64,000 nt of DNA, taken from positions 16,884,527 through 16,948,526 of the forward strand of contig OX485808.1 in NCBI GenBank assembly GCA_950295325.1, written 5' to 3'. A program made the translations under genes and the position numbers. Each line of letters starts with the position of its first letter. The stretch's first letter is position 1. The notes under the pieces are model-generated. The model was not told the DNA's origin, did no database searches, and was given only the letters and a program-made list of their open reading frames with translations. Source of the DNA: Polytrichum commune. Its lineage: Eukaryota > Streptophyta > Polytrichopsida > Polytrichales > Polytrichaceae. Positions 39,401-64,000 of this stretch are shown here, one piece after another.

Positions 39401-40456
39401 ATATACTAGAGCTAGCAAATCGGCTGGAATCTGCTGTACTTCTGTGGCGACGGAGAGGTCAAACAAAGACCACACAGGTGACCCCGAGAGAGAAATTCAA
39501 TGCCAAAAGTTCATGGGGGAAAATGAAAGATCTGGTGGGAGATATGGACAGGAGGGGATTGTTCGCGAATAGAGCAGAGAGTCTACTTGTGCGGCTAAAA
39601 CAGCTTGTCCCAGGGATGGCACAGACAATGTTGGACACAAACAAAATTCAGTTCAACAGGGTAGGTTTCTTTCTGGGCCCTGGAACCTTGATTTTGCAAA
39701 TATAGCTGAATTGTAGATGATAATTTGTGCAGCTGGTAATGTCTGCCTTTCAGTTTCTCTTCGATGCTAACACACAGTCCCCCATGTTCCTAGTTTCCTG
39801 TTAACTTATGACGATCACCTTAAGGCAGCGAGAACCATGCTGTCTGCCTTTCTCTAGCAAATGGGTGGCTGAAGTAGAGATTTCAATTATACTATCAAAG
39901 CTGCTATAAAATAGCTTCAAGTGGTGCAAGTGGTTCTAAGTTTCAGCTGGTGGCTGTGCAGGATGTGGGACAGTCAATTTTGGAGAGCTATTCTCGAGTG
40001 CTAGAGAGTTTAGCATTCAACATCATGGCACGCATCGATGATGTACTCTATGCTGATGATATGGTGAAGAAGACGTTGGCACCTCAAGTACCCTTGGGTC
40101 GTGAGCGTTCCATCTCAAAACGCATGTATTCCAGCCGGAAAAGGTCAAATGGGTCTATGCATTTCACCGCCCTGAGCACACCCTATGTGACACCGTTCAT
40201 CTCCCCTGATAATTCCCCATCTCCGAGTCCTCTAAGAACAACGCCCTGCTCTCCTCGGGAATATGCAAAGCCAGGACCCATTCTAGTCCCTTCCCTAGGT
40301 AGAGCTCTGTCAGACTACCTAGACTTAACAGAAGGGGATGCTGAGCAGGAACAAGAGGCACAACGGAAGTTCTCAGCAGAGGCTGCAAGGCCTTGGACTT
40401 ATGCGGGACACCTCGAGAACAGCAATGCTCTACACAGCCCACCAGGGCGCGACTAG
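36408..40456 (+). CDS. Rop guanine nucleotide exchange factor (PRONE domain), seven exons
   Basis: Activates plant Rho-type GTPases (ROP/RAC) by swapping GDP for GTP at the plasma membrane, in polarised growth and receptor-kinase signalling. Exons: 36,408-36,750; 37,011-37,127; 37,285-37,439; 37,817-37,891; 38,484-38,771; 39,298-39,660; 39,962-40,456. All introns are GT-AG and the joined length is 1,836 bases (611 codons plus stop). PRONE starts with [20 protein letters not shown] at about residue 115. It shows [32 protein letters not shown] with the WW pair, [24 protein letters not shown] and [19 protein letters not shown], ending near VLYADD. The N-terminal 114 residues and the Ser/Pro-rich C-terminal tail are variable, as usual for the family, and the tail is where such proteins are commonly autoinhibited and phosphorylated. 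No stop or frameshift is seen. The start is the first ATG after an open-frame acceptor-like site; an upstream coding exon is not excluded. Confidence 0.95.
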
Positions 40457-41880: not shown

Positions 41881-41941
41881 TTGACCTAAAACTTGCAAGT
41901 GCTGGACATGGTGTTTTGAAACTTCATGATTGGCAATCAAT

Positions 41942-44706
41942 GACTTGTGAAAGTGTGAAAGAGAGTGGGTTGGCATGAAGGATCTAATTCTGAATACAAG
42001 TTGGCTTTCAACAAGGATCCCAATGAAACACATCTTAGAAAGAAGCATAGGGGGTCGCTATCGCATGTGGTTCAGTATGGGAGGAATTTGACACAAATCT
42101 TTCTTTATACAATCTTTCCTAGAAGAGCTTTAAAGTTCTGGAAAATTTGAGTGGGCTTGAAGAACTTTTAAAATAATTAAAATAATAATAATTGGGATGT
42201 GCAAATTCATTGTTTATGATGTTTAGTGTCATGTACACTATTTGCAAAGGGCCTAAGCTAGATGCCTAGAGGTCTCAAAGTGTTAGGCTTGCTAATTGCC
42301 AATATGATTCCATTTGTCAACATAAAAGTAGCTTATGGTGAAAAGATATCTATATCATGATATATGGAGGGGCACATTGGGATACGTCAAATGACAATCT
42401 TGCGTTTTAGAATGTGAGGAGAAGATATTTTTGAGGGTACTAATGGCAAAGTGTCATGCGTTTACATTTTTAGTGTGCAAAGAGGAAGACATTTGTGTGC
42501 ACTTTTTAGTCAACTTGTAGACCATTGTGACACATAGGCATGCACCTCATGACACTACTCAGGCCAAGATATTAGTAAACGTACTTGAAGGCCAAGTGTC
42601 ATGAGTTGACATTTATGGTGAAGTTGATCAATATAGTAACCTAGCGTACGCTTGAAAATATGGTAAGTGACACTATTAAACACCAAATACCATAGATGGT
42701 GTAGTGGATTCAGGTATACTTTGCTTGGAAGGTTTCACAATTCTTAGAAAGCTCACAATAGCACATGGCAATGTGCATACTATCACCATCATTGGGGTCT
42801 GGACTTTGGAATGCCATAGCGATTTCGACATAAATTGGATAAGCTCCGAAATTGAAGGAAATGTTTGGAATTATTTAAATTTCAAAATAAAATTTGTACA
42901 TAAAAGCTTCCAAAAAAGTTTAACTTTCTGTTGAGCCTTGGTAATTTTTTCATTAAAGGCCAAAAAGGGCGCATCCCGCTTGAACACAAAGTGTATTTTG
43001 GGAGCAACATGTCCCATCTCATTGTGTTGATTTTGTGCAATTTTTGTTTCTCTAATGAGTCGCTAAGAATTACACAAGTATTCATACACATTCCACCCAA
43101 TTAAGTGCGATTGACTGTAATTAAGTCTAATTAATTCTGATTAATCCTAATTAAGCCCAAGTATGCATACCAAATTAAGTAAGCCTGATTAGTAATAAAA
43201 TGTAATTACTGGAATTAAATAAAATTAATTCGAGTAATTACATCGATTAATTAATTAATTCCAGTAAGTACATTTTATAATTAATTGTGTATGAATACTT
43301 GTGAAAGTAGACGGAATTACATAAAGTAGTATAAAATATACATAGTAAATCAACACACTAAATTGAAGTGTCATTTCAGAATGACAAAGACAATTTCAAA
43401 TGGTAAGTCATAAAAATTATAACCTCAATGTTAATGAGGATTTTGTAATTTTTTTTGACCTCCAAATTAATTACGTGCTTCATTAATGGTTTCACTTCTG
43501 GAATGAAATCCCAAACAATTGCTTATTTATTGATTGGAAGTGCACATATATATTGGATTTTAGACCCTGAGGGTGAAGTGCACTCAATATGGGATTTGTA
43601 ATCAAACGGCCTTCAAAAATGCAAGGGAAATGTTTTTTTCGAAGTTAGGTGGGGCGGGCAGCAATTTTCGGTCGGGTTCAGAAATTTTCCTAGAGGGCTG
43701 CCCCAACCGGGATCTGACAACCCCCATAGTTCGTAGGGGGGACTTAGGGCCGGTTTACACTATGGACCATGAAGTCGGACCATGGAAGATGGCCTTTGTC
43801 AATGGTCCGAGTTCATGGTCCCACTCCATAAAAAAATTAGTATTGAGAGCCTTGGGGCCCTCACTAGGTGTAAACCGAATGTGCACCAAGAAGAATGACC
43901 ATGTACCAAAAAGTGAAGGTGTTGATTTTTTAAACACATGCCCCAAAAGGGCAATTTTGAAAAAAATACACGGTCGACCATTCTCTTACCTTCTCTTTGG
44001 CTTCACTTGTCTTCACTTCTTGCTAAATGTGTTGAGGATATGGCTTGCAAATCTTCTCACAAAAAAATTCATAAAAAAATGAGCAATTTAATTTGTACAT
44101 GTTCAATGTAATTTACATGTGACATGTACCTTGTGTTGTCACTACACTAAATAGGATATATATAGTGTTTGATTATATTTAATTTTGTTACCACCCTACC
44201 TTGCTCAACACTAAAGTTCAATTCTTTGATAATTAGTGTTAGAAGATTTCCCACTGCGGTTTTTTTGACCACCCTCATCTATAGTCATTAAACGACTACA
44301 TATTTTTCTTTTTCTTTTTGCAACTGCAATTTTAGAAAAAATTGGGCGTGTAATATACCGTTGGAATATTACAACGGTATATTACAAGCCCCCAAATTCT
44401 AGACATTATAGTTGGTAGAGCAAAAAAAACATCTGCACTAAAATTCTTGAGTTTTAGATGTCCCACGTTGTTTGGTGAAACACGTGGGAGCCGGTTTAAA
44501 GGGTAGAGCACGGTAGTAAAGGTATGACTCATGGGCTATAATGTGATTGAGGCACATAGAGGGTAGATCCATATAAAAAATTAGTAGAATTGCATTTCTT
44601 TGCCATGGGCCCTTGCCTTTTCCTATCAGACCACCTCTCTTGCCTCTCTCACCGCAAAACCTGTTGGACCAATTCAGTGCATTTATTAGGCCTTAAAAAT
44701 TATATT
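41942..44706 (+). repeat. 2.7-kb direct duplication, copy 1
   Basis: From GACTTGTGAAAGTGTGAAAG to TTAAAAATTATATT this segment matches 49,406-52,587 almost base for base apart from scattered substitutions, a few small indels and one 449-bp MITE present only in copy 2. It contains a TTAGTGTCA-family element, an AT-rich part with many TTAATTA words, and most of a Harbinger-type element. No gene lies inside. Confidence 0.92.
42208..42706. mobile_element. TTAGTGTCA-family element (within duplication copy 1)
   Basis: Left end CATTGTTTATGATGTTTAGTG, right end ACCATAGATGGTGTAGTG; GTGTCA and TGACAC face each other inside both ends. Same family as 30,524-31,071 in opposite orientation. Non-coding. Confidence 0.7.
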
Positions 44707-45337: not shown

Positions 45338-46642
45338 AGATGATTGGGAAGTAAAAGTTAGTACCAATTAGAAGACGATACTCTAGGAACCAAGTGCAGG
45401 TTGCAGAGCCAGACGTTTTTCCTGATTTGCCAAGTCGGGAAGTGTTGAGAGCTCCAAGGCTGTGTGGTTCTTGTTTGGTATTACGAAGGTACTTGTCGAG
45501 ATTATGGCATTATGGTTCAGGTTCCTCAGGATGTGTGTAGTATACTAGGTGTTTGGCTGGGTTTGTCGGTGTGAAGGGACAATTAGCAGAGGGAAATCTT
45601 GAATTAGTTCTTGGAAGGTGGTCCTTCAAAACTTTGTTAGAGTGTAAGTTGATAGATTTGTACGATGCTGGCAACATTTGATATCCTCTTAAACTCTTAA
45701 GGGGTTCGGAAATTTAATTCTCGCGTTGCGGAGGTAAAATTTCAGGGTTATCACGTGCGAGTTGTTTGTTGGAGTTGCTAGATCACTGTAATGGAGGGGG
45801 ATGTGGAGGGTGTGTTTTGAAGTTCACTAGCTTATAGAGGCACGGGGTTTGGCTGGATGGATGCAGGGGGTGAAGCCTGGGCCTTTGGTGAACACGAAAG
45901 AGTGAGATCTTGAAGCCGGCCGTGCAGGATCTCTGGTGAGCTCGTTAGGGTTTCGTTTGGTTCACGGCGAGAGGGGGTGTGCATCATTTGAGCTTGGTGT
46001 AAGAAGTCGAGCATGGTGATCATAGCAGAGTCGGAGGACAGGGCTGGCCGCGAAAGGTGGGTGCAACTTGTGAGTAGATAGTGTGTAGACAGGTTATAGT
46101 TGACATCTTCTGACTTACACTGGCAACCCTTCTTCATATCGCCCCGTCGCCAAATCAGAGCCTTAAGTTCATCAGGTCGGGCTGTATCTAATACAGAGAT
46201 AAGAGGTGCTACTGCTGAAAGTGGTGCATCTACCCTGATCCTAGATGTTGGAAGAGAGGTGATGATTTATAGGGCCTCTGTGTTGATTCATGTATCTATG
46301 AATATGATTGATAACCAATAATTGTGATAGATCATCTGGATTGAGTACAGAGGAGTGCAGTGGGCAAAATTTACTCGCTTCTGCGCGTTGCAGTAGACCC
46401 AGCACGAACATGACGTTTTCCTTCGGTTTCATTGAGTACAATACCGGAGATGGATGCGATTGGTTTAGTTTTGTTGTAAATTGCACATGAGAAGCTTAGG
46501 CCGTTGTTAAATTGTCAACCCATGCAGCCTCTTCGTTGTCGTAGTTCACATTTTCGTGTCCACTTGTTGATGAATAGATTTGTAAGGATTTACCACAAAT
46601 CTCCAGGAATAACTGGTTTGGTTGTTGGCGAGCCCATTACAG
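45338..46642 (+). other. Upstream region of the TIR-NBS gene
   Basis: Probably contains the promoter and the missing first coding exon of the TIR-NBS gene. The TIR exon has no in-frame ATG after its last upstream stop (TAG at 46,575-46,577) and an acceptor-like CATTACAG lies at 46,635-46,642. I could not decide which upstream ATG is used. Confidence 0.4.
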
Positions 46643-49414
46643 GACGTCGCCACTCCAGTCCAAGCATGAGGTTTTCTTGAGTCATAGTGGAGCGCAGAAG
46701 GACTTCGTACACCAACTTAGCCTGGACTTAGAACGAGAGGGCTACTTCCCTTACTTCGATAAATTGTCCGATTGTCTACCCAAGGGAGAGAGATATCCAA
46801 ATCTCATTTTCGAAGCGGCTGAGCAATGCAGTATGGCAGTGGTTGTCTTGTCACCAGAATACATGACTGCAAAATGGCCTATGATGGAGTTAAACGCATT
46901 CTATATGGCTCAATCTTCGACGAGACCGGAGTTAATACAATTTCCGGTCTTCTACAAGTTGCAGCCTGGGGACTTGAGTGATAAGAGCAAATTAGATGCA
47001 TGGGAGGAGGAATGGAAGAAGCATGAGAAAGAAGATACGTCTGGCAGGATTGATATAGAATCATGGAGGAAGGCTGTTCGGTACCTCCGTGGTATAAATG
47101 GTTTAAGATTTTCAGATTTTGGGAATTCTGAGGTATCGTATAGAGAAAGACTTGTGGAAGAGATTTATGGCAAACTAAAACCATGCTTGGGATATGATCT
47201 TTCACGTATTCAAGGGTGCAATCGGCTTTGTGAGGTATGTAACGCATGCACATGACTTGAGGAAGCAATTTATATGTTTCTTTTAGTTGCATGATGTTTC
47301 CTTCTGCTTTGAAGTTTCAGAGGCGAAGCGATGCTTGGGTATATTTCTCATTATACAGATTGGCGATATTGGTGATATAGGACGGTGAATCAAGCAGATC
47401 AATGTGCATTTACATTGAAGGACTCCGTTGCATAATGAGTAAACATGAAGATGTTGTATCGATTCGTGCATGATTGTGCGTGAGATGTTAAAACTTCTGG
47501 TATTACTGATTTCTGGAAGACTTATTCCTTCTGTATCCATCACTATGGCAGATTGTCGAGGGAATGTTTGAGGCTACTACCAATGGTAATGCACAAGGTG
47601 TGCAAATGCTGGGATTATATGGCATGTGCGGTGTGGGAAAGACAACGATGTGTAAAGCCCTTTGCAATCACTTTCAAAACCGATTTCAAGGAAGGGTGTG
47701 CCATGTGGAGCTTGGACCACGTGAGAAGTATCTGGACTTGCAAAAGAAGGTCCTGAAGAATCTCACAAATTTAGAGGATCAGGCATTGCAGGACATTACG
47801 GATTCAAATCAGGTAGGTTGCCAGATTTTGCGGTGGCAAATTTGTAGAAGAAAATTGAAAATATATCTGGGAGTCGTAATGCCAGGTTGCTACGGCCAAC
47901 CAGCCACATACCGGTTCAAGTTCTCCTGCAAGCGGCACTTCCTCCCTGTGATTCACATGGTCAAATGGACGAATAATCAATCAGTTAATTACTTGCTAAG
48001 TGTGCAATTCTATTAACCTTGTTTTTTTGAAATGCTATTAAAAATTGTTACGAATAGATGAGTAAGAAGTTAAATTTGTTCACGGGACGCAGTATAGAGG
48101 TTACATTATGGTGAAGATGGGGTTGAATGGACAGCATGGAATCTAGTGCGGAGGTTACATAAAGAACAAAGGGTTTTGAATAGTAGACTAATTGACCAAA
48201 TTTCTGTAGACCTAAGTGAAGTGGTACTACCATTAGTGAGGTGTAGGGAATTTGGAACACCACTTGGCAGCGTGTAAGAGACGGCATTGAGAAAGGGGAT
48301 AGTTATACGCTAACCCTTGACTCCAGGTGATGGTTACATTATGGAGGCATCTACAATGATATGAGATTTAATGGAAGTCCAACAATATGGTGGTGGAATA
48401 GGCCACCAAAGTTGTGGTGCTAGGAAAGATCCCCCAAGGGTGTGCGGCAGTTTGGCCGTGGGTAATTTGTGAATTTGTCAGCCGGACTCAGTTGAGAGTT
48501 GGGTCCTGCCAATTTAGTTAATTTTCTCTGGGATAGGAACCATGAAAGGAATGCAGCTAGTAGTTGGGACTACTTGTGCCAAGTGTTTAGAGCTCTAACA
48601 CGATGAACACATGATGGGGCACAATTCCACTTGAAGGCAGTCTGTGGTTGAAGCTGGTTGTGTATGACAAATCAGGGGAGTTTCATTCTTGAATTTGAAC
48701 TCATACTAGACAAATATGTTATCATGTACATAACATGTTATTATCAAACATATATGTACCTTTAAGAAAAGTTTGTTGCATCACGGAAGCCTCCAAGAGT
48801 AAATCCTAGTTTGGGGTGTGGTTTGCTCCGAATCTAATAGGTACTCCTGGATATGGGACAATAACGAACCAAGTCTTGGTTGTTCGTTATTACAGGCCCA
48901 GTTGCAGATGAAGAGACGGATGGGAGGACAAGATGTGTTCTTAGCTGTGGATAACGTGGAGAATGCTGAACATTCTCAAGAACAAGCGCGAGATTTGCTC
49001 AAAAGCACCTTCAGTGCGGGAAGCAAGCTGCTGGTCACAGGTAGAAGCTCTTCAACTGTGAGGGATGTGCTTCGACAGGATGAGAAAAAATTCTGTAAGC
49101 CTTTTCCAAACGTGAATGCTACTGAAGCTTTATCAATATTTCTGGACAAAGCAGCCCCTGGAAGGTCCATTGCATCACTTTCAGCAGAGGAGATATCTGT
49201 TGTGGTGGAATGCGTGAAGGAGGCGTGCTTTTTAGGAAAGTATCATCCGTCCGCCCTAAGAGCGTTGGGTTCTGATTACAATAAGGTGGATGCTCGAAAT
49301 CCCTTGCGTTGGCAGAGTCACCTGAATGACATCCATAAGCTTCGACCATGTGGAGAATCTGAATCTGGAACTATCTTTCAGATACTTGGGTTGGGGTTTG
49401 ACAAGGACTTGTGA
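46643..49414 (+). CDS. TIR-NBS resistance-type protein, truncated in NB-ARC
   Basis: Intracellular immune-receptor type. Exons: 46,643-47,234 (TIR), 47,552-47,812 (P-loop), 48,896-49,414 (rest of NB-ARC), joined by GT-AG introns in phase. TIR begins HEVFLSHSGAQKDF and has the family's conserved W-x3-E-L (KWPMMEL) with the glutamate that serves NADase activity in plant TIRs. NB-ARC shows GMCGVGKTT (P-loop), VFLAVDNV (kinase 2) and LLVTGRSSS (RNBS-B). The GLPL site is altered to a YHPSALRALG form. The protein stops 13 residues after CGESESGTIF because sequence from 49,406 belongs to the 2.7-kb duplication; the stop codon itself lies in that repeat. ARC2 and the LRR are therefore missing. It may be a pseudogene or a short TIR-NBS protein. 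The true N-terminus is in an unresolved upstream exon. Confidence 0.85.
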
Positions 49415-49671
49415 AAGTGTGAAAGAGAGTGGGTTGGAATGAAGGATCTAATTCTGAATGCAAGTTGGCTTTGAACAAGGATCCCAATGAAACACATCCT
49501 AAATAGAAGCATTGGGGGTTGCCATCGCATGCAGTTCAGTATGGGAGGAATTTGACACACATCTTTCTTTATACAATCATTCCTAGAAGAGCTTTGAAGT
49601 TCTGGAAAATTTGAGTGGACTTGAAGAACTTTTAAAATAATTAAAATAATAATAATTGGGATGTGCAACTT

Positions 49672-50149
49672 CATTGTTTAGTGTCATGGACACTATTTGC
49701 AAAGGGCCTAAGCTAATGCCATAGAGGTCTCAAAGTGTTAGGCTTGCTAATTGCCAATGTGATTCCATTTGTCAACATAAGTAGCTTCTGGTGAAAAGAT
49801 ATCTATATCATGATATATAGAGGAGCACATTGGGATATGTGAAATGACAATCTTGCGTTTTAGAATGTGAGGAGAAGATATTTTTGAGGGTACTAATGGC
49901 AAGTGTCATGCGTTTACATTTTTAGTGTGCAAAGAGGAAGACATTTGTGTACACTTGTAGACCACTGTGACACATAGGCATGCACCTCATGACACTACTC
50001 AGGCCAAGATATTAGTAAACGTACTTAAATGCCAAGTGTCATGAGTTGACATCTATGGTAAAGTTGTTGATCAGTATAGTAACCTAGGGTACACCTGAAA
50101 ATATGGTAAGTGACACTATTACACACCAAATACCATAGATGGTGTAGTG
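49672..50149. mobile_element. TTAGTGTCA-family element (within duplication copy 2)
   Basis: Counterpart of 42,208-42,706, with small internal deletions relative to it. Confidence 0.7.
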
Positions 50150-50751
50150 GATTCAGGTATACTTTGCTTGGAAGGTTTCACAATTCTTAGAAAGCTCACA
50201 ATAGCACATGGCAATGTGCATACTATCACCATCATTGGGGTCTGGACTTTGGATTGCCATAGCGATTTCGACATAAATTGGATAACCTCCGAAATTGAAG
50301 GAAATGTTTGGAATTATTTAATTTTCAAAATAACATTTGTACATAAAAGCTTTCAAAAAACTTTAACTTTCTGTTGGGACTTGGTAATTTTTTCATTAAA
50401 GGCCAAAAAGGGCGCATCCCGCTTGAACACTAAGTGTATTTTGGGAGCAACATGTCCCATTTCATTGTGTTGATTTTGTTTCTGGAATGAGTCGCCAAGA
50501 ATCACACAAGTATTCATACACATTCAAACCAATTAAGTGCGATTGACTATAATTAATTCTAATTAATTCTGATTAATCCTAATTAAGACCAAGTATGCAT
50601 ACCAAATCAAGTAAGCCTAGTTAGTAATAAAATGTAATTACTGGAATTAAATAAAATTAATTCTAGTAATTACATCGATTAATTAATTAATTCCAGTAAG
50701 TACATTTTATCATTAATTGCATATGAATACTTGTGAAAGTAGACGGAATTA

Positions 50752-51200
50752 CAGTCCACCCTCTATAAATGTTACACCTATAAGTGTTAACCCTCTCTAA
50801 ATGTTGATTTTCTTCTACTCCCCACATATTGCACACTATAAATGTTAAATGTGTTAATTGTTAACAAAATGGTATTCCCTTCTTTGTAAATTTGACTGTA
50901 TAAATGTTAACGAATGAAATACAAACATAATATTGATGATAAAAACTACACATCCAGTTACATTCCTCTCTCTCTCTTGCAAGTGATTTGTAAACTTGAT
51001 ATTGAATAAAGTTTTGATTGGGTTTGCAATTTTATGAATGGTATTCTCTCACAAGGACTCTTAACAATTGCTTATATTTATAAATGTTAAGATTTGTATA
51101 TTGCTCAAAAAAGTAATTTTATAATTGTTAATTGTTAACACCTCTATAAATGTTAACTTTGATCCACTCCCGAGGGTTAACATATATAGAGGGTAGATTG
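50752..51200. mobile_element. pogo/Emigrant-like MITE with TA target duplication
   Basis: The ends are inverted: CAGTCCACCCTCTATAAATG at the left and the complement of CAATCTACCCTCTATATATG at the right. TA flanks both sides (50,750-50,751 and 51,201-51,202). Copy 1 of the duplication has a single TA at 43,318-43,319 with matching flanks, which is the empty site. A CAGT start followed by CCTCTATA is the signature I know from plant Emigrant/pogo MITEs. The interior is AT-rich with repeated TATAAATGTTAA words and no coding sequence. Confidence 0.9.
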
Positions 51201-51628
51201 TACATAAAATATTATAAAATATACATAGTAAATCAGCACACTAAATTGAAGTGTCATTTCAGAATGACAAAGACAATTTCAAATGGTAAGTCATAAAAAT
51301 TATAACCTCAATGTTAATGAGGATTTTGTAAAATTTTTGACCTCCAAGTTAATTACGTGCTTCATTAATGGTTTCACTTCTGGAATGAAATCCCAAACAA
51401 TTGCTTATTTATTGATTGGAAGTGCACATATATATTGGATTTTAAACCTTGAGGGTGAAGTGCACTCAATATGGGATTTGTAATCAAACGGCCTTCAAAA
51501 ATGCAAGGGCAATGTTTTTTTCGAAGTTAGGTGGGGCGGGCAGCAATTTTCGGTCGGGTTCAGAAATTTTCCTAGAGGGCTGCCCCAACCGGGATCTGAC
51601 AACCCCCATAGTTCGTAGGGGGGACTTA

Positions 51629-52587
51629 GGGCCGGTTTACACTATGGACCATGAAGTCGGACCATAGAAGATGGCCTTTGTCAATGGTCCGAGTTCATGG
51701 TCCGACTCCATAGAAAAATTAGTATTGAGAGCCTTGGGCCCATCACTAGGTGTAAACCGAATGTGCACCAAGAAGAATGACCATGTACCAAAAAGTGAAG
51801 GTGTTGATTTTTTAAACACATGCCCCAAAAGGGCAATTTTGAAAAAAATTCACGGTCGACCATTCTCTTACCTTCTCTTTGGCTTCACTTGTCTTCACTT
51901 CTTGCTAAATGTGTTGAGGATATGGCTTGCAAATCTTCTCACAAAAAAATTCATAAAAAAATGAGCAATTTAATTTGTACATGTTCAATGTAATTTACAT
52001 GTGACATGTACCTTGTGTTGTCACTACACTAAATAGGATATATATAGTGTTTGATTATATTTAATTTTGTTACCACCCTACCTTGCTCAACACTAAAGTT
52101 CAATTCTTTGATAATTAGTGTTAGAAGATTTCCCACTGCGGTTTTTTTGACCACCCTCATCTATAGTCATTAAACGACTACATATTTTTCTTTTTCTTTT
52201 TGCAACTGCAATTTTAGAAAAAATTGGGCGTGTAATATACCGTTGGAATATTACAACGGTATATTACAAGCCCCCAAATTCTAGACATTATAGTTGGTAG
52301 AGCAAAAAAAACATCTGCACTAAAATTCTTGAGTTTTAGATGTCCCACGTTGTTTGGTGAAACACGTGGGAGCCGGTTTAAGGGGTAGAGCACGGTAGTA
52401 AAGGTATGACTCATGGGCTATAATGTGATTGAGGCACATAGAGGGTAGATTCATTAAAAAATTAGTAGAATTGCATTTCTTTGCCATGGGCCCTTGCCTT
52501 TTCCTATCAGACCACCTCTCTTGCCTCTCTCACCGCAAAACCCGTTGGACCATGCCAATGCATTTATTAGGCCTTAAAAATTATATT
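51629..52587. mobile_element. Harbinger-type element, right-truncated copy
   Basis: Same as 43,747-44,706 but lacking the last roughly 117 bases, including the right terminal repeat, because the duplication border lies within it. Confidence 0.8.
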
Positions 52588-54442: not shown

Positions 54443-54548
54443 TGTCGTGTAAATAGCGATCGTGTGTCACTGCAGCTCGAGTACCAACCACCACTAACAA
54501 ACAACACTAAAACATATCCAAGTCACACATAAACAACACACCTCGACA
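54443..54548 (-). repeat. 106-bp duplicate of the LTR inner edge
   Basis: Identical to 54,885-54,990 except for about two substitutions. It begins (minus strand) TGTCGAGGTGTGTTGTTTAT and ends at the TTTACACGACA block. It directly abuts the outer side of the proposed 442-bp LTR, so it is either a partial tandem duplication or part of a second LTR. Confidence 0.9.
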
Positions 54549-54990
54549 GAGAAGGAAGAGAGTAGAACACTCGTAATAGCTCTAAATCTCTCTTCAAATG
54601 CACACAATTAGTCAAGCTATCTCTCACTCCACCAAGGGAGAATCCAAGAGTGTAAGTAGAGGGAGAAGAACTCAAGATTTATTGCAAAATCATGCAATCT
54701 ACACCTCACACAAGCTCTCTCCACACACTAACTCACAAGACTTGACTTGGCAAGAATGCCAAGCCAAGGAGGAGGCTCCTCACTTAGGAGCCTTCCTCTC
54801 CACATCTAGATTCATCCATCCAAATCTAGATGGATGAAATCCAACGGATAAGGTGCGGCCGTCGACGCCGCATACCGTGACAGCTGTCGTGTAAATAGCG
54901 ATCGTGTGTCACTGCAGCTCGAGTACCAACCACCACTAACAAATAACACTAAAACATAGCCAAGTCACACATAAACAACACACCTCGACA
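54549..54990 (-). repeat. Candidate 3' LTR of the gypsy element
   Basis: In element orientation it starts with TGTCGAGGTG at 54,990, immediately after a purine-rich CTGAGGGGGGGCA (54,991-55,003) that fits the polypurine tract. It contains an AATAAA signal (about 54,683) and a GAGGAGCC hairpin. I found no matching 5' LTR within the window and no clean CA terminus, so the outer border is uncertain. Confidence 0.55.
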
Positions 54991-55319
54991 TGCCCCCCCT
55001 CAGCTGACTAGGGAGTCCCGCCAAGCAGCTAGGACCAATGCCAATCTAAAGGGCATGGATAATAAAAGATTGCTCCGCAACTAACTAGTGTGGTAAACGT
55101 TATTCCAAGGAATTGTAGGCTGGGTGCAAGGTGAGCCCCATCCTTAATCGCCTCTGATATTTGGCCATCAGATCCCCAAGAATTAAATCCACCGCCTCAT
55201 GTTGATTGCGTCTCTAAGCCATAACTCCTCATTTTCCATTTGGGCAGACACAAGATGATGAAAACCACACATGATCATTGAGTACGATTGGTGGAAGCAC
55301 CAAGTACTGAAGATCCTCG

Positions 55320-55454
55320 ACAGCGAGGACAACTCCACTATCCAGATGGTAGAGAAGCCAAGGGTGGCCTCAAGCATGCCATGTGTCAACCGCGTTGACA
55401 CTGATCACACAAGAGCATAGTAGCCGCTCCTTTCTTCTCTCCACACACAAAACA
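55320..55454 (-). pseudogene. C-terminal PHD finger of the gypsy polyprotein
   Basis: After the integrase the frame reads CFVCGEKKGAATMLLCDQC, then HMAC, then WSCPRC. The order C-x2-C, C-x2-C, H-x2-C, C-x2-C, with tryptophan two before the last pair, is the C4HC3 PHD pattern. The usual aromatic before His is replaced by a TGA (55,386-55,388), as from TGG, and a TAG (55,338-55,340) sits before WSCPRC. PHD fingers bind histone H3 tails. Here it occupies the place where many gypsy integrases carry a chromodomain, so a role in choosing insertion chromatin is inferred. Confidence 0.85.
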
Positions 55455-56720
55455 TGGAAGACCCTCTGGCACGACAGCCAGTTCAGGATGAACTGTACCC
55501 TCAATAGGTAGATAACATGGGGCACAGTTTTTGGAATACTCGCGACATTCCCTGCCATCATTGCCTTCCAACAACAACAAAGCACTCGGCAACACCTCCT
55601 TCACCCGAAGGATAGTGCGCCCCGCCCTGACATCCAATATCGTAGGCGCCTCACGTTGAAGATAAACATAATCCCCTTGCCAAAATCTCCGCAACTGAGG
55701 TCGGTAAGCACCACTGCGAATACGTGCATAACGCAATGTGTCACGGTGCTGAGCAATGGACAAATTCTCCATGGCCATAGGCATGGCTCTCTGGAAGAAT
55801 TGAGCCCGCTCCTGCAAACACTTTGCCCAAATGTTTGGGTCATCCAAGTCCACAACAGGAGCTAATTTTTCCCGAATAAAACTTGGGAGAGTAGGCTCAC
55901 GTCTATACAATAACTGATACGGGCTGTAGGATATAAAAGAGGTCTGCCTACTAAATCGATAGCCCATAGCAATCCAAGGCAACATAAGGTCCCAATCTCG
56001 GTGGCTTCCCCGAAGTAATCCATACTTCCTCAAGCCACGCTTGGTTGTTTGAACAACCCGTTCAGCCAAGCCATCTGCCTCCGGATAATCCCGAGAGGTG
56101 GTACGGTGATCTATGAGCGCCTTAGTGCACAACTCTTCAAAAGCACTAAGGAACTAGCTCCCTTCCTTGGTCTGTCAACACCTCAGCCGGTGCTCCAAAA
56201 CGTGCTAACACACGATCCAAAAAGGCGGCCGCGGCCAACTCTGCAGAGTTTTGGGATAGAGCAACAAGCTCAATCCACTTGCTAAAATGCTCCACCATCA
56301 CCAAAACGTACTTTGCTCCACGTGGTGTAACCACCAACGGCCCTGCAAAGTCCAGCGACCAACGGTAGCCCAATCCCATGATAGGTAAGGGCTGTAACTC
56401 TGAGGTGATAAGGTGTTAAAGCTAGACTTGACCCGGTGACAAACTTCACACCTCCTGACATAGGCAGCCACCTGCTGATACATGCCAGTCCACCAATATT
56501 GGCCACGCAACATCGAATGTGTCCTGCGTATGCCAAAATGGCTAAGTTCCTCGTGCACTTGTCGCACTAAGGAGGCTCTCTGATCCGGCCTAGGAACAAT
56601 ACGCCTTGTCCCATCCGGCCACAATCGAAATAACAAACCGTTCTCCCAACGGAACCTTGTTATTCGATGTCCAATCCTATCCCTTTCCATTGCCGAAACA
56701 TACAAAGGAAAGGTACCCTG
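55455..56720 (-). pseudogene. Integrase (HHCC zinc finger, DDE core)
   Basis: Inserts the cDNA into the chromosome. The zinc-binding HHCC part reads VHEELSHFGIRRTH and then CEVCHRVK near 56,420-56,570. The core has RWSLDFAGPL (first Asp), VLTDQGRE (second Asp) and DGLAERVVQ (Glu), so the catalytic triad is present. It is followed by an FWQGDYVYLQRE-type DNA-binding C-terminus. The core between about 56,400 and 56,146 is in a different frame from both sides, implying one small indel near 56,395-56,415 and another near 56,143-56,160, where CTAG looks inserted. The PHD finger continues directly after it. Confidence 0.9.
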
Positions 56721-56899
56721 TTGAAGCTTATGCAATACGGGAAGATCCTCCCATATATCCGCAATAGCTTGAGGCCGATCAGTCTCATCATCCGAGCCCT
56801 GTATCGGAATCTCAACAGATGCACCAGAAAATAAAGTGAGGTAAGCAGCCGCGTGCCAACCTGGAACCGCCTCTCGATCACAATCTCCATGCCACCTGG

Positions 56900-57560
56900 C
56901 CCCGGTCAAGTCCTCATCTGAAGGACTTGGATTGCGTGAGAGTCCATCTGCATCCATGTTGGTAATCCCAGCACGGTGTACCACCTCAAAGTCATACTCC
57001 TGGAGCAACAAAGCCCACATGGCAAGCCTGCCAGTAAACTTATCCGACTTCATGAGCCACCGTAACGGCTGATGGTCAGTCACTAAAGTAAAGTGCTGAC
57101 CATAAAGATACGGCCGAAAATGAGCAATAGCTCATACCGCCGCCAATGCTTCTCCCTCGTAGGATGAATAATTAGCCTCCGCCGTGTTATTGCTTCGCGA
57201 AGCGTAAGCAACAACATACTCCCGGCCAAAATCATCCTTCTGAGTGAGAACTGCTCCCAAACCCAATGAACTCCAATCCGTATGCAACTGGAAAGATTTG
57301 GAGACATCTGGACGTCGAAGCACTAGAGCCGTACCCAATTTCTGCTTCAATGTCTCAAACGCCTGTTGTTGCTCACGACCCCAAATCCACGGTTGGTCCT
57401 TGCTCGTAAGAATGGTGAGAGGCTTGGCGATCAAGCTAAAGTTCTTGACGAATCGCCGATAGTAATTCGCCAAGCCCAAGAAAGCACGAAGTCTCGGCAC
57501 ATCAACCGGTGCCGGAATCTTCTGCAAGGCGTCCACCTTAGCTTGTTGTACACCAAGACC
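56900..57560 (-). pseudogene. RNase H domain and connection
   Basis: Degrades the RNA strand of RNA-DNA hybrids in reverse transcription. After the thumb-like AFLGLANYYRRFV and the bridging KPLTILTSKDQPW come FQLHTDWSSLGLGAVL (first Asp), YEGEALAAV (Glu), LVTDHQPLRWL (Asp) and DADGLSR (Asp), so all four acidic sites are present. A TGA at 57,132-57,134 stands where this family usually has Trp after EALAAV. Confidence 0.88.
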
Positions 57561-58427
57561 TCATGGAACAATCATATGTCCCAGATATGCCAGCCGGTCA
57601 TGGAAAAACTTGCACTTGCCGTGGTGCAAGAGCAATCCCCATCGCTGCAACCGTTCAAAAACGGCCTGCAGATGCCTCACATGCTCCTGTGGTGTTGTGC
57701 TGATGATTATCACATCGTCTATGTAACACCGAGCAAAGGGTAAGCCAGAGAGAACCTGATCCATCACCCGCTGAAACTCAGCGGGTGCATTCTTCAAGCC
57801 AAATGGAAGAAACTTCCAATGATAAAGTTGATCTTTCCCATCTTGATCAACTCCCCAGAATGCGGTTTTCACTCGATCTCCCGCAAGTAATGGGAGTTGG
57901 TGATAGCCGAATCTCAAGTTTAGGGTACTAAAGACTCGAGAAAATCCGATGGCATCGAACAACTCCTCGGGGATTGGCATGGGATACCGATCCGACTTGG
58001 TCTTCCGATTACCTGGACGGTAATCCCCGCACATCCTCTTCTCCGTCCAATTGCCAAAGATTTCATTCTTCGATGGCATCACCGTAGCACAAGCATACTC
58101 TTCGTTGGAAAGTTCGATTAGTTTTGTTGCCAAGAGCTCTCGACAACGGGCCTGAACGCCAATCCGCTCGGAAACACTGAGTCTATAAGGTCTCCGAAAA
58201 ATGGGATGGTCGTCCTCCAACTGAATGTGGATGGGTTTTCCTTTATAACCTTCAAGATCCTGAAGGCTAAAAGCAAAACACTTACGGTACGAGCGAATAA
58301 ATGCTCGTACTTTCTGTGCCTCAGCACCAGTGAGATGAGGGCCCAATTCCAATGGCCAATCATCAAACTCTGTGGTCTCCCTTTCCACTAGAAGAGAGCC
58401 ACCTGGTGCTGGCACGGACTCTAACTG
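57561..58427 (-). pseudogene. Reverse transcriptase, active-site Asp lost
   Basis: Copies element RNA into DNA. It shows FRRPYRLS, MPSKNEI, RMCGDYRPGN, STLNLRFGYHQ, KTAFW, FLPFGLKNAPAEFQRVMDQ, YIDDVIIIS (57,714-57,725) and AYLGHMIV in standard gypsy order. The first catalytic Asp of the STLDLRSGYHQ-type motif is Asn (AAC at 57,918-57,920). The domain is bounded by a TAG at 58,428-58,430 and a TGA at 57,561-57,563, both in frame with the neighbouring domains. Apart from these changes it is well preserved. Confidence 0.93.
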
Positions 58428-58724
58428 CTAATGAAAGGAGGGGACATTAACCATGCCCCCAAACTCCGTGCTAGCAATAGAGTCCATCCCCTCTTCATCA
58501 CCACCAATATGTGATGATGAAGCCACCACCGGAGGTGAAGAAACCAAAGCAATATAAACTCGTTGAGCTCGGAGCTCCTCCATTACCTGCTGCTCGAATC
58601 GAAAAATTCGTTCGGCTCCTTCAACCCTGACATCAATTCCCTCCTCCATGGATGTGGACCGTTGTGCCCCCTGACCAGAATCCTCTGCCCCCAGAGACAA
58701 TAATTGGTCACCATGATGCCATTG

Positions 58725-59687
58725 CAATGCAAGGCATAAACTAACAGTCCACACCATGGTATGGAGATCCATGGCTTGGCCCAATACGAAGCTTCGTTGG
58801 CCCTCAGAAAGGCCAGGAGCTGCGGTGGTACCAGTGCGGAAGCCCATGGCACGCTCTTGTTCATCAGCCAAGGGATCGGTGTGGGTTTTGGTTTTAGCAT
58901 CCCACACCATACCCGGCTCCTGATCGCGGAAGGCGAATGATTGTGGAAACGTCATAAAGGTGGGAAATGCCCTCCGTGGTGCCCCCACTTTGTTGACCAA
59001 TGCCAACGGGGGTAAATCATCTCGACCAACCGGCAAAGAGGTCCGGTTTGGATCCAAGATGTCATCCATCTTCTGATCCAAAGGTGGAGGCACTGCAGAA
59101 AATGCTGCAGCTAAAGTAGATGACGGTGCGAGGTTGGTCCAAATCCACCGAGGCCGGTGGACATAAGAACCAATGCTCGCGGCATTTACAAAAATGGAAT
59201 CTCCAAGGTGTTGACGAACATAATGATCGCCTTCCAACACCTTATCCCGAGAGTCTCCCAACAATGGAACATTCTCGAAGATATACCCTGGAGGGGTACG
59301 TTGGTGGGAAAACCACCACTACATGAGGCGGATGAGGTCCCAAAATAGACTAGACCTGGGATCCTCTAGACCTCGGCCGGCTCCAGCACGTGAATGGCCC
59401 TGGCATGGCCATCCCGCAATTACCATATCCACCGAACCCAAGTGTCGTAAGTCGGCATCACTAATGAGTGTGACATCACGAGGGAGACGTGAAAAACACC
59501 CACGAATGGCAGTTGGAGGTAATTGGTGGGGGTATAATACCATCAATTGGTGAAAATGGTGACGAGCCACACGGGTGGACATTTGAGAGTTGTCCACATA
59601 GACATACCGTCTAACTGTGAGGCCAGCCTCTAATACGGCTGCTAAGCCCGTGCCGATGCCCCCAAACAGTTCGACCAAAGTAATCCC
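58725..59687 (-). pseudogene. C5 cytosine DNA methyltransferase domain inside gypsy pol
   Basis: Transfers a methyl group from S-adenosylmethionine to carbon 5 of cytosine. Motifs in canonical order over about 320 residues: I, LVELFGGIGTGL (cofactor loop); II, YVYVDN; IV, DMVIAGWPCQGHSRAG with catalytic Cys at 59,403-59,405; VI, FENV at 59,268-59,279; VIII, HRPRWIWTNL; and X, LGQAMDLHTMVW near the end. The only break is a TAG at 59,319-59,321 between motifs IV and VI, in frame on both sides. The motif order is not the permuted order of plant DRM enzymes. Motif IV (PCQ with GHSRAG) is DNMT1/bacterial-like, while motif VIII recalls DNMT3, so the source is unsettled. It sits between protease and reverse transcriptase in the same frame as the latter, so it was part of the polyprotein. 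Confidence 0.93.
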
Positions 59688-60149
59688 CGCGTCTGGCGGC
59701 TGCCATAAAATGGGATGTGCCAATGCTGAGAGGGCATCCGGTATGACCGGTGTCCGAGGAGTGAGAGAGTGAACAATATCCTCACACCTCCGGAATAGTT
59801 CGGCGGAATTACGCCAAGGAGGAAGGGGATCCTTGGGATGGCGCATGAATGCATACTTAGGTGTCATATCCCGTGGATCGTCTGTATTCCCCATGAATGC
59901 CAATGACTCTTCCAACAATGCGGAACCATAAGGCAATGTGTCCACAATAGCACCACATCCAAAAACCATGGATAATGGTGCTATGGTCGCGGCCGCCGCG
60001 AAAGCCACAGGAATAAGTTCCCTGCGGCCATCCCCAGCCGACCAACCTGGTCGGATCCATGCCCCCTCTGTCCAGTTGTCCAAACCAAAACCAAAAGGGT
60101 AAAGTGCTTGGTGACCAACTAAAATGTCATAGTTGGTCGCATCCGTCAC

Positions 60150-60958
60150 CGCACACCTAAGAAGAAGAGGTGCGGGTGATATTGTGATATTGTGCGGAGT
60201 GAGAAAGTGAACAATATCCTTACACCTCCGGGTGGATCTTCAGGCTTCACTCGGAAGCTAAGTTGTAATGGCTCCCGAGTATAACCCGTGGCCCGCTCCA
60301 CGTGACCAATGGATGTGACAATGGTGAATGGACAGGGAGCCAAATCCTCGGCCGCCAACCCCAACTCTTGGGCAAGCCTCTTGCCGATCATAACTGGTTG
60401 TGCCCCTGAATCCATCATCACACAACGGGGAGCAACCCGAGTAGCATTGCTCCCAGTGCGACTGACCACCAAAATGCCGGTATCATTCACCATACGCACA
60501 ACGCCGGGTCGAATGCCGCGGTGCTCGCGGGCAGGTCTAGCAACGACATCAGACAGATAAGCTGCTCCCGCGGATACTGGTGAATCATAAGACGTGGTCG
60601 GTGCCTTGTCATCTAAGGTGTGTGCGTCAAAAGACGCAATGGTCTCTGCCGCAAGTCTCGCTCGCCGTTTGGTCACCTCCTCATGATCTTCAGAAGCAGG
60701 GATGTCCGTAGTAGCTTGAGCCACGGTCTGAGAAGGTAAGGATGCCTTCCCTTCCAAAATCCTACCTGCTAAGTGAAAAACCTTAGCAGGTTGGAACTCT
60801 GGCGACGACCACTCCATTGCCGTGAACAAAGGTGTGTGCAACACCTTGGATGCCAATGTGTACGCCATGTCGGTCGCTGAATGTGAAACCTCATTGTTCG
60901 GATGACGACCACTGACAGATTGGACGGCATCGGCCAATCCAAAAGATAATGGTAGTCA
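60150..60958 (-). pseudogene. Retroviral-type aspartic protease
   Basis: Cuts the polyprotein. MMDSGAQPVMIG carries the catalytic Asp (60,410-60,412), followed by LAQELGL and a PFTIVTSIGH strand. The end of the domain (TNYDILVGHQALYPFGFGLD) is in the next frame, starting near 60,149. The frame changes within 60,150-60,235, where a 36-base segment copied from 59,758-59,793 is found. Upstream the frame is continuous with gag apart from stops. Confidence 0.85.
60196..60231. repeat. 36-bp microduplication (partner 59,758-59,793)
   Basis: The two segments differ at two positions only. One copy is native coding sequence between protease and methyltransferase; the other lies where the protease frame breaks. 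Confidence 0.9.
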
Positions 60959-61132: not shown

Positions 61133-62566
61133 CTAAGCTCTGGAGGAAGACGGTGAGGCCAAAATTTGGCCGGATGACGTTAAGCTTTTGAACCTCTCCT
61201 CCATGGCTCCAATCTTCGCCTCCAACGTCTTCTCCCGGTCAGAAGGATGTTTCTCAGGATGGAGAGCAAAGCAGTTCTCGACCACGTGATTGTTCCGCCC
61301 ACAATGAGAATACTTCAACTGCTTGGGTAACTGATTATCCGTTGTCCCCTTCGCCGAGCCCTTAGCGGGAACAAATGGTTTCCGCTTCGGAATAGTGACG
61401 GTTTGGGCTTGCCTTTGCTTCGAAGGACAGTCCTTCTTAGCGTGGTCGGCCTGCCCACAAGACCAACAATACATGGTCTTGTCTACCTCAGCCTCCGCCA
61501 ATCCCGCAGCCGCAACCGGAACTCTTTGGGATTTGCTAGAATCTACTAGCAGGGACACCAAATCAGTGGCATCATGCTGACACAATGCACGATCACACTG
61601 CTCGACAATGGCGAAAGCCTCTGCAAGTGTCGCCCGACCACCATAATCCATGATGATCCTGGGCAGCACTAAGTCAATGAGGCGTTTGTCAATCTTGGAC
61701 AAAAATACCTTCACCAACTGGCTCTCTGCGAAAATACCTCCAAATTCTCTTGCAAACCTCGCCAACCTCGTGTACATGGTACGAGGTGTGTCCTCTTTCT
61801 CCCGTCGAAAATCCTGGATCCGCTGCATTTGATCTCGGCGGAAACCTCCATATTCCTCCTCCAAATGGAGTTGGAATTCATGCAGAGGATCAAATTCAAG
61901 CGGAGCCCCTAAAGAGGCTAATGCTGCCTGGGTAGCCTGGGCATACCGAGAGAGTGGAAGACTCGGACTCGACATACTCGCAGATGCGGATGTGGGAGCC
62001 TGATCTTTAGGCCCACTGGGAAAACTCCCCTCCACATCCACTACAACGACGCCCTCGGCTTGCTCTGGCTTCACCACAGAAGCGGCCAATAAAGTAGAAG
62101 ATGCGCCTTCCTTTAATGCGGAAACAAGCTCCACCCGAGTCTCCCAGTATCGCTCCACCTAGCGCAACACCATCCAATAAGCATCCCTCCATTGCTCATA
62201 AGTCTGGAGCGCCTCATGCTCCAAATGTGGAGGTAGTAACTCAAACGCATACCAGTCATTGAAACTGGTATTGCGTTGACGCTTCTCCCTCATCCATGTC
62301 CTGAACCGAATTTTCCAATCTTGCAGGGAAATGGTCCCTGCTCGACCGGAAAATCGGTGACGGATGCCGCCTCGCGTTTCCTCCTCCATCTCGTCAAAGG
62401 ATCCCACCCAAATGACGTGAGACCGAGTAGCAATCTCCCACGCCGAAATAGGCTGAAAAGCCTCGTCGGGTGCTACCACAGGTTCACTGTCCAAAAGGTC
62501 CGAAGATCGACCTTACGATGATGCCGGAGACGGAGAACGATAATGTTGGCTCCGAGTTGTAACCAT
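61133..62566 (-). pseudogene. gag with CCHC zinc knuckles
   Basis: Capsid and nucleocapsid part of the element. The start is an ATG at 62,564-62,566 (MVTTRSQHYRSPSPASS), after which the frame is open except for TAA (62,513-62,515) and TAG (62,159-62,161). The capsid-like helical part includes FRRDQMQRIQDF and ARFAREFGG. The first knuckle CWSCGQADHAKKDC is intact. In the second, YSHCGRNNHVVENC, the first Cys is Tyr, a single G-to-A change. The frame ends with a TAG at 61,133-61,135 but remains readable into protease, with further TAA (61,052) and TGA (60,956). Confidence 0.88.
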
Positions 62567-64000
62567 AAACCCGCAATGGATTTGGTCATTGGAGCCAACA
62601 ACCTAAACTAATGTGGTATTAGGGTAAAGGCAACCTGTACCTACAACCACCACCAAATTTTATGGTCTGCTGGTCATCAATCCAGCCTCACCATAAGGGA
62701 ATACAAACACTGCCCACTTGGTGCACACACAAGGGTCTCGTCGATCATTACTCCGACCTCACCCCCACAATACCCTATCACAAACTAGGACAACACAAAA
62801 TGGGGCAATGTTGGAAGACTCCAACACAACAACCCGCAACGGGGGAAGGTACCACAACAAAATACAATGAACAATGCAATAACCGCACTGGATCCTCTTC
62901 TCCAAAATAACACTTAAACAAAAATTGAAAGCGACCATGACCAACCGGCACCCGCCTACGGTTGGTGGTAAAAAAAGAAGAGCCCCTGTTGCTTAAGAAA
63001 AGAAATTGTATAAGCACATCGCTCATCTAATCTACAACATAAAATCCTCTCCTCTCTGAAGTCCCTGGAATCTGTGTTTCTCAACACAATTCGCTCTTAA
63101 CAATTATCTTGTTAAGTCGAATGGGGATTCTATGTGCCAATTTGCTTTACCCCTAGGCAATTCCTCAACAATCTATTAAACCTATCCCCAAAAAATCCCA
63201 ACACAATCCCTCAAAAGAAATCCCAAGTATTTTTAATATTTCATAAGAGCTTAGGTTTTCTTCTTTGTGTCCTTGATTAATGAGCCCAAGAAATTAACCT
63301 CTTAGAGAGAAGAGAAAAAAATAGAAGTTGAAAGGAAACATAAACTAATTACTTAATTAATTTAATTAAAATTAAATAATTAAAATAAAATATCCGGTTT
63401 TAATTGTTAAATTAAATTAAATTAAATTAAGTCCGATTTTAATTCATTAACGTATTGATTAATTAAAACAAAAACAAAAACAAAAACAAAATAAAATAAA
63501 CCACAACCGGTTGGACTTCATGCATTCGGAAATCAACCGATTACGCCCACAAATCTCTCCAATCATAACTCAAGTCTGCAGGCAGCAGACGGTAGACGTA
63601 GACAACAAAAAACGAAAAAAAATTTAAAGTTTGCAGACAGACGCCTGCAACCGCATACAGACGCCGACAGATGCCGACGCCGGCAGTTGCAGGCAGCCTG
63701 CAGACCAGGGCCAGGGGCCAGGCTGCAGAGGGAGGCAAGCTGCCTCCCTCTTCTTTACAATTTTTTTTAAAATTTTTTTTTTGGTCAAAAATTGATCCTT
63801 CTTGAGAATCAAGAATGCCTCCTCCACCTCCTACTTCACAAATTCATGCTTGTAGGCAACTCATAACAAGAAATTCCGTGTAGTATTGAGAAATTTCTCA
63901 CCACAATTCAAAATGATGTGCACACATCACAAGCACACCTTTTTCCTCCTTGTTTCTCCGCGAATCCGCAATGTTTGTCTTCCTCCACTCCAAAATCTCG
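62567..64000 (-). other. Leader or 5' LTR region of the gypsy element, unresolved
   Basis: No coding sequence. It includes an AT-rich TTAATTAAATTAAAT stretch (about 63,340-63,440), an AAAAC run near 63,468-63,495, an ACCGGTT-type fragment near 63,506-63,560, and a CTGCAG/GCAGGC-rich palindromic part (about 63,569-63,745). No part matches the candidate 3' LTR, and no primer-binding site was convincing, so the 5' LTR may lie past the window end. Confidence 0.45.

Follow-up and report, generated by a model that had tools for sequence, protein, structure and literature searches.

A methyltransferase inside a gypsy element

We analysed a stretch of 64,000 nucleotides from contig OX485808.1 of the moss Polytrichum commune (the window, whose positions are used throughout). 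Its minus strand carries an element that, judged by the domain order Gag, protease, reverse transcriptase (RT), RNase H, integrase and by its Pfam matches, belongs to the Ty3/gypsy long terminal repeat (LTR) retrotransposons. Between its aspartic protease (DSGAQP) and its RT (RVT_1) lies a C5 cytosine methyltransferase (MTase) domain. The upstream piece of the MTase matched PF00145 (E 3.4e-10) over the catalytic motif region; the downstream piece had no match on its own in the Pfam scan and can be aligned to intact relatives. The stretches VELFGGIGTG, GWPCQG, FENV, HRPRWIWTNL and LGQAMDL, which we take to be motifs I, IV, VI, VIII and X, follow one another in the canonical order, as the original prediction had stated, and the plus-strand translation of 58725–59687 is riddled with stops. 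A complete enzyme joined to the RT had also been proposed. The domain, its place between protease and RT and the common frame of MTase and RT all held up, but the open frame is not complete: one TAG interrupts the MTase between motifs IV and VI, and another intervenes between MTase and RT (Table 1). The identity of the element as a carrier of a DNMT3-class C5 MTase within a gypsy family is, in our judgement, practically certain.

An intact relative was found by a scan of genome contigs, which yielded five loci: four partial Streptomyces matches and a 9285-base contig (CADCWO010000201.1, hereafter L001) from the bin Synechococcales AVDCRST_MAG81. Judged by its content, L001 is most likely eukaryotic contamination of the bacterial bin. 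Its first open reading frame (ORF1) runs uninterrupted through Gag, protease and MTase to a stop. ORF2 follows in the same frame and is open over 1047 residues, with RT, RNase H, the integrase H2C2 finger, rve and a PHD finger. The contig contains one LTR-sized stretch and its ends overlap by 127 bases, as expected if the assembler circularised an element with one LTR.

The window copy is decayed. Eleven in-frame stops (60239 to 55200) were counted in the MTase/RT frame, and a frame change separates the protease from the MTase. The last in-frame stop, a TGA at 55277–55275, is close to where L001 ORF2 ends and may be the natural ORF2 stop. Apart from this TGA and the conserved TAG at the MTase/RT junction, the stops are nonsense changes or arise from shifts of frame within the integrase region. 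Upstream of the N-terminal Gag piece there is an ATG (near 62567), separated from it by a stop. The protease piece, whose Asp codon was read by eye at about 60412, had no Pfam match; relatives score with Asp_protease_2 or gag-asp_proteas.

Table 1. Features of the retrotransposon in the window, listed in the direction of its transcription
Feature	Position	Strand	Remark
N-terminal Gag piece	62159..62512	-	L001 8702-8972 matches
Gag with CCHC zinc knuckle (CWSCGQADHAKKDC)	61133..62158	-	no Pfam match; matches Gag part of L001 ORF1
Aspartic protease frame, DSGAQP about 60417-60400	60146..60955	-	by eye; frame differs from that of the MTase
C5 cytosine MTase domain, motif I to X, DNMT3-like	58737..59687	-	317 codons including the internal TAG; bounds via L001 alignment
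In-frame TAG within MTase, between motifs IV and VI	59319..59321	-	lesion of the window copy; open in intact relatives
Conserved stop, MTase (ORF1 end) / RT (ORF2 start)	58428..58430	-	TAG CAG TTA, fits UAG-CARYYA
RT, YIDD box	57561..58427	-	PF00078 (RVT_1), E 6.2e-26
RNase H, first piece	57132..57560	-	PF17919, E 2.9e-26
RNase H end and integrase H2C2 zinc finger	56298..57131	-	PF17917, E 4.4e-13; PF17921, E 7.3e-19
Integrase C-terminal part and PHD start	55386..56153	-	no Pfam match; 85% identity to L001 ORF2, 255 codons
PHD finger, integrase C terminus	55319..55460	-	PF00628, E 1.5e-12, with X at its two stops
Polypurine-tract-like AGGGGGGGCA right before LTR	54991..55000	-	by eye; L001 same place
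3' LTR start (TGTCGAGG...)	54549..54990	-	homologous to L001 LTR start
Second partial LTR start	54443..54548	-	directly after 54549..54990

At the 3' end, the first 106 LTR bases occur twice (54443–54548 and 54885–54990; 98% alike, 442 apart), as if the 3' LTR had been cut into by a second partial LTR. Self-comparison of the window revealed no 5' LTR, which may extend past 64000, and Rfam and tRNA scans of the window returned nothing.

Distribution of intact relatives

Protein searches gave 110, at least 119 and at least 29 matches; in the second and third, each limited in length range, the best 7996 and 7993 candidates by shared words were scored. Fourteen proteins of 1252–1451 residues (P0183–P0196) have the arrangement Gag-protease-MTase. 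All of them contain GWPCQ, a protease motif and a CCHC knuckle, and one, P0189, lacks the N terminus. Named matches came from the liverworts Marchantia polymorpha (P0199, with 18 member sequences, on a 27.0 Mb contig; P0201, 23.9 Mb; P0200, 2.9 Mb; P0204, 1.9 Mb; P0203, 0.17 Mb) and Calypogeia fissa (P0198, 8.8 Mb), from the moss Sphagnum troendelagicum (P0153, 15.3 Mb) and from the alga Closterium NIES-53/54 (P0108, P0165 and P0170, on contigs of 29–375 kb). The motif IV stretch is missing from two of the Closterium models, P0165 and P0170. Calypogeia and Sphagnum are placed in the Embryophyta by taxonomy, and further relatives come from environmental (metagenome) DNA.

Both the occurrence of the family in land plants and the existence of other genomic copies with the protease-MTase order, which had been anticipated, were borne out, the latter by many proteins and by the open-frame L001. 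On these sequences, the MTase is a stable component of a Ty3/gypsy family and not a one-off capture. The opposite case, raised with the original prediction, is that a fragment of a host DNMT entered the window copy alone, in a single event; the stop-broken state of this copy is all that we found in its favour. Because relatives from many sources, including megabase contigs of liverworts and a moss, keep the protease-MTase order, one late insertion event confined to this copy is ruled out, with a residual probability that we regard as negligible, and the purifying constraint seen on the MTase (below) also argues against it.

Some relatives carry misleading annotations. P0035 is a probable eukaryotic retroelement sequence in a bacterial bin (an Obscuribacterales metagenome-assembled genome, MAG), like L001 in the Synechococcales MAG81, and one bacterial-bin entry of this set is annotated as a bacterial DNA cytosine methyltransferase, which we read as contamination. 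P0153, P0199 and P0201 sit in the Sphagnum and Marchantia gene sets as ordinary genes, P0153 as DNA (cytosine-5-)-methyltransferase; such annotation of element proteins could inflate host DNMT counts.

Class, constraint and phylogeny of the MTase

Among solved structures, DNMT3A and DNMT3B were nearest both by sequence and by a confident structure model, for which sequences of relatives were used, at about 20–25% identity in the structure matches. Compared with DRM, DNMT1 and bacterial enzymes, DNMT3 is the nearer relative of the MTase, whose motif order is canonical, not rearranged as in DRM. We assign it to the DNMT3 class, with a predicted DNMT3-like fold. It shares this catalytic fold and the motifs with animal DNMT3, but L001 ORF1 had no PWWP or ADD match in Pfam, and the PHD finger lies on the other ORF.

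Between the window copy and L001, 65% of residues are identical in the MTase (316 codons; proportions of nonsynonymous and synonymous differences, pN 0.235 and pS 0.748), 83% in the RT (287 codons; pN 0.099, pS 0.663) and 53% in Gag (277 codons). Owing to saturation of the synonymous divergence (dS), the ratio near 0.06 does no more than indicate purifying selection on the MTase, which would have acted largely along the L001 branch and the ancestors of the window copy. Motif residues were counted, at lettered positions only, in 203 aligned domain rows (193 sequences, including DNMT3A, five bacterial-type loci and the window). The catalytic Cys is retained in 135 of 141 rows, and the Glu and Asn of motif VI in 104 and 105 of 110, respectively. 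Glu-Cys at motif IV, with the Cys retained, was seen in P0143, P0171, P0174, P0156, P0162, P0202, P0206 and P0207; P0171 alone represents 156 member sequences.

The tree comprised 44 hand-picked rows (41 of the 207 database proteins, the window, DNMT3A and L001); 60 of the 193 profile matches span most of the MTase domain. The window grouped with the metagenome rows P0050, P0002 and P0021 (support 100/100), next with a ten-row group of L001 that includes P0189–P0191 (97/91), and then with an eight-row group of P0192–P0196 and kin (100/98). Marchantia, Calypogeia, Sphagnum, P0197 and P0140 formed a separate clade (100/99), and P0202/P0162, P0143/P0156, Closterium and P0163/P0206/P0207 were the deeper rows. 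The deepest part is unsure, with DNMT3A, P0163, P0207 and the Closterium row as long branches.

In P0163 the MTase is located directly upstream of the integrase, and likewise in P0206 and P0207, after RNase H. The RT, integrase and PHD finger of P0206 and P0207 match L001 ORF2 at 39–43%. Their arrangement implies that the MTase either moved within the lineage or was captured twice, at a point of the tree where branches are long.

A bacterial or phage origin was considered and rejected. A tblastn search with P0044 returned 406 phage and 63 plasmid records; none of them reached 60% identity or had 80% of the query in one place. On the family profile, the five bacterial-type loci scored 32.5–35.3 bits (best segment), and DNMT3A segments scored 62.4, 15.3 and 9.8. 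Viral contigs contained no relative when searched with the window piece or with L001 ORF2, and six partial matches when searched with the MTase alignment.

The stop between MTase and RT

The junction reads CAT TAG CAG TTA in the window and AAG TAG CAA TCA in L001, and both of these fit UAG-CARYYA, a six-base context reported to be essential for the leakiness of the tobacco mosaic virus (TMV) stop (PMC2754532). None of the window element's remaining ten in-frame stops has this context. Among all TAGs, it fits 1 of 61 on the sense strand of the element and 1 of 101 in L001, the junction stop each time, and 4 of 1745 over both strands of the whole window, the junction stop included. In a hand-chosen table of 30 rows, ORF1 ends 88–157 residues past motif X in 26 (for the window, the frame end was taken), and the remaining four (P0163, P0202, P0206 and P0207) continue beyond that end; the tail of P0189 is unrelated, and P0198 and P0199 are gene models. 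Because relatives end ORF1 at the same place, the junction TAG is not a product of decay, and MTase and RT would therefore be joined only via readthrough.

We consider it likely from this context and conservation that some ribosomes read through the junction UAG, in which case the MTase would be among the abundant products, along with Gag. The layout resembles type I readthrough of TMV and beet necrotic yellow vein virus, with UAG and CARYYA between two same-frame ORFs; it differs in that the MTase precedes the stop, and leakiness here is predicted from sequence. Alternatively, the stop is not read through, and the RT is obtained by re-initiation, by splicing or from a second RNA. This would agree with the Marchantia model P0201, which runs from MTase into RT, whereas P0199 and P0203 end at the corresponding place, so that the annotator probably put an intron over the boundary. 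Both DNA copies keep one frame on either side of the stop together with CARYYA, and gypsy elements of rice, RIRE2 among the citations, have been named as readthrough candidates (PMC2754532). We regard a junction without readthrough as unlikely.

Several points weigh against readthrough and a general Gag-side position of the MTase. Two junctions are available as DNA, and the others are protein ends, some of them from gene models. P0202 continues from MTase into RT without a stop, and in P0143 the MTase continues into a segment whose match to the start of the RT is weak (25%, 79 residues). In P0206 and P0207 the MTase comes after RNase H and before the integrase. Exceptions of this kind show that the Gag-side position does not hold throughout.

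The PHD finger on the integrase

The PHD finger at the integrase C terminus is intact in L001 (E 4.3e-10), with the C4HC3 zinc pattern, and is retained in P0206 and P0207 despite the different place of their MTase. It is most like the fingers of CHD4, PHF12, KMT2D, UHRF1 and KDM5, among others, and several such fingers read histone H3 unmodified at K4 or R2. PHD fingers that read H3K4me3 have a cage Trp two positions before the zinc His, where the L001 finger has Gly. By analogy, our guess is that the finger reads unmodified H3. A chromatin reader at the integrase C terminus is also known from the chromoviruses, in which it is a chromodomain; here the reader is a PHD finger, and L001 ORF2 had no chromodomain match. 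To judge by the title of a cited work, PHD fingers reportedly occur in CR1-like non-LTR retrotransposons. A further one is present in the DNA transposon Ginger1 (PMC2836005).

Known methyltransferase-bearing retrotransposons

The charophyte and dinoflagellate precedents named in the original prediction are real (PMC5890265). In Klebsormidium nitens, de Mendoza et al. (2018) described KnitGypsy-Dnmt3, which is, like the moss element, gypsy-type and intronless, with an unrearranged Dnmt3-class MTase under purifying selection. Compared by description, it differs in having the MTase in a Pol polyprotein ORF and in a DIRS-like repeat layout (PMC5890265), whereas in the family of the window element the MTase ends ORF1 in 26 of the 30 rows, with a fusion to RT in P0202. 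The main text of that paper does not contain the words PHD, readthrough, Marchantia, gag or protease, and no match named Klebsormidium was among our matches listed, most of which are nameless. SymbioDIRS-Dnmt3 and SymbioLINE-Dnmt of Symbiodinium are likewise retrotransposon-borne cytosine MTases but belong to other classes, DIRS and long interspersed nuclear elements (LINE); SymbioDIRS-Dnmt3 methylates CG in yeast (PMC5890265).

According to a 2019 paper, algae of several groups, charophytes among them, contain Ty3/Gypsy and DIRS elements that encode DAM and DCM, but land plants such as tracheophytes lack such transposons (PMC6338049), a statement that the bryophyte copies qualify. A DNMT survey of 2025 noted some DNMT3 members embedded in streptophyte and dinoflagellate retrotransposons, and its supplement may hold some of the bryophyte copies (PMC12344493). 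A literature search of titles and abstracts found no report of the family in land plants or of a gypsy PHD integrase. As far as these searches reach, the land-plant copies, the Gag-side MTase ahead of a stop that is putatively leaky, the PHD finger on the integrase and the second arrangement are new.

Possible role of the MTase

Taking everything together, we lean toward a gypsy family built as Gag-protease-MTase, a leaky UAG and RT-RNase H-integrase-PHD, whose MTase would methylate the element's own complementary DNA (cDNA). Most ribosomes would stop after the MTase, which would then be made in Gag amounts and enter the particle, and a minority would read through to yield the replication enzymes. 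Gag-protease-MTase would build the particle, the protease would free the MTase, and the latter would methylate the cDNA once this is double-stranded and not yet integrated, with CG as the probable target if SymbioDIRS-Dnmt3 and DNMT3A are a guide. Integration might be steered in part by the PHD finger through H3 reading. New insertions would arrive pre-marked like silent host DNA, with less harm to the host, or the cDNA would be shielded. Considered on its own, the self-methylation of cDNA falls a little short of an even chance.

Other points weigh against this reading. The constraint estimate is rough, with dS near or beyond saturation. Glu replaces the Pro before the catalytic Cys in 12 of 140 rows, and activity may vary accordingly within the family. 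The reading of H3 by the PHD finger is proposed from its similarity to other fingers. Finally, KnitGypsy-Dnmt3 showed no activity in yeast, a result that its authors call inconclusive (PMC5890265).

The element's anatomy is equally compatible with a protective function, in which the MTase would guard cDNA, in the cytoplasm or the nucleus, against nucleases or deaminases of the host, and silencing would follow as a by-product. Protection is among the readings that de Mendoza et al. discuss (PMC5890265), and the Gag-side position would supply many MTase molecules per particle. Retrotransposons without a DNMT, however, still move in the genomes studied (PMC5890265), and we consider protection as the main function rather unlikely. 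Still less probable, in our view, is an MTase that acts in trans on host DNA or RNA or reshapes host silencing instead of acting on the element. The DNMT3 fold is that of a general de novo enzyme, and de Mendoza et al. consider that the LINE version might methylate RNA and that the host might be affected in Symbiodinium (PMC5890265). The recurring Gag-protease-MTase place nevertheless argues for action inside the particle, and the methylome of Klebsormidium is land-plant-like despite such elements (PMC5890265).

Returning to methylation of the element's own cDNA, a broader version can be proposed as a speculation that we hold to be doubtful as a whole. A streptophyte-wide gypsy lineage, surviving in liverworts and moss, would combine a Gag-level DNMT3 before a leaky UAG with an H3-reading PHD integrase, pre-methylate its cDNA and land in matching silent chromatin; a deep branch would have moved the MTase to the RNase H/integrase region and retained the PHD finger.

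Hosts restrain transposons chiefly through cytosine methylation, so an element that carries and retains the means of this restraint is hard to fit into a simple arms-race account. From the Gag-side position one can predict the place and time at which the MTase acts. With copies in Marchantia, a gene-editable laboratory plant, the reason why a transposon keeps an MTase becomes directly testable.

Other features of the window

The TIR-NBS and RopGEF genes noted in the original prediction were recovered by matches to their exons, all on the plus strand: a PRONE (RopGEF) exon at 39878–40456 (E 1.1e-15), and TIR (E 3.5e-16) and NB-ARC (E 6.9e-8) exons at 46578–48016. This set of exons is consistent with land-plant DNA. 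The TIR/NB-ARC exons are flanked by a direct repeat pair (41938–44706 and 49402–52587) in two blocks, each about 1.39 kb long and 92.7% and 98.3% identical, respectively, which represents either a recent duplication or the long repeats of an element.
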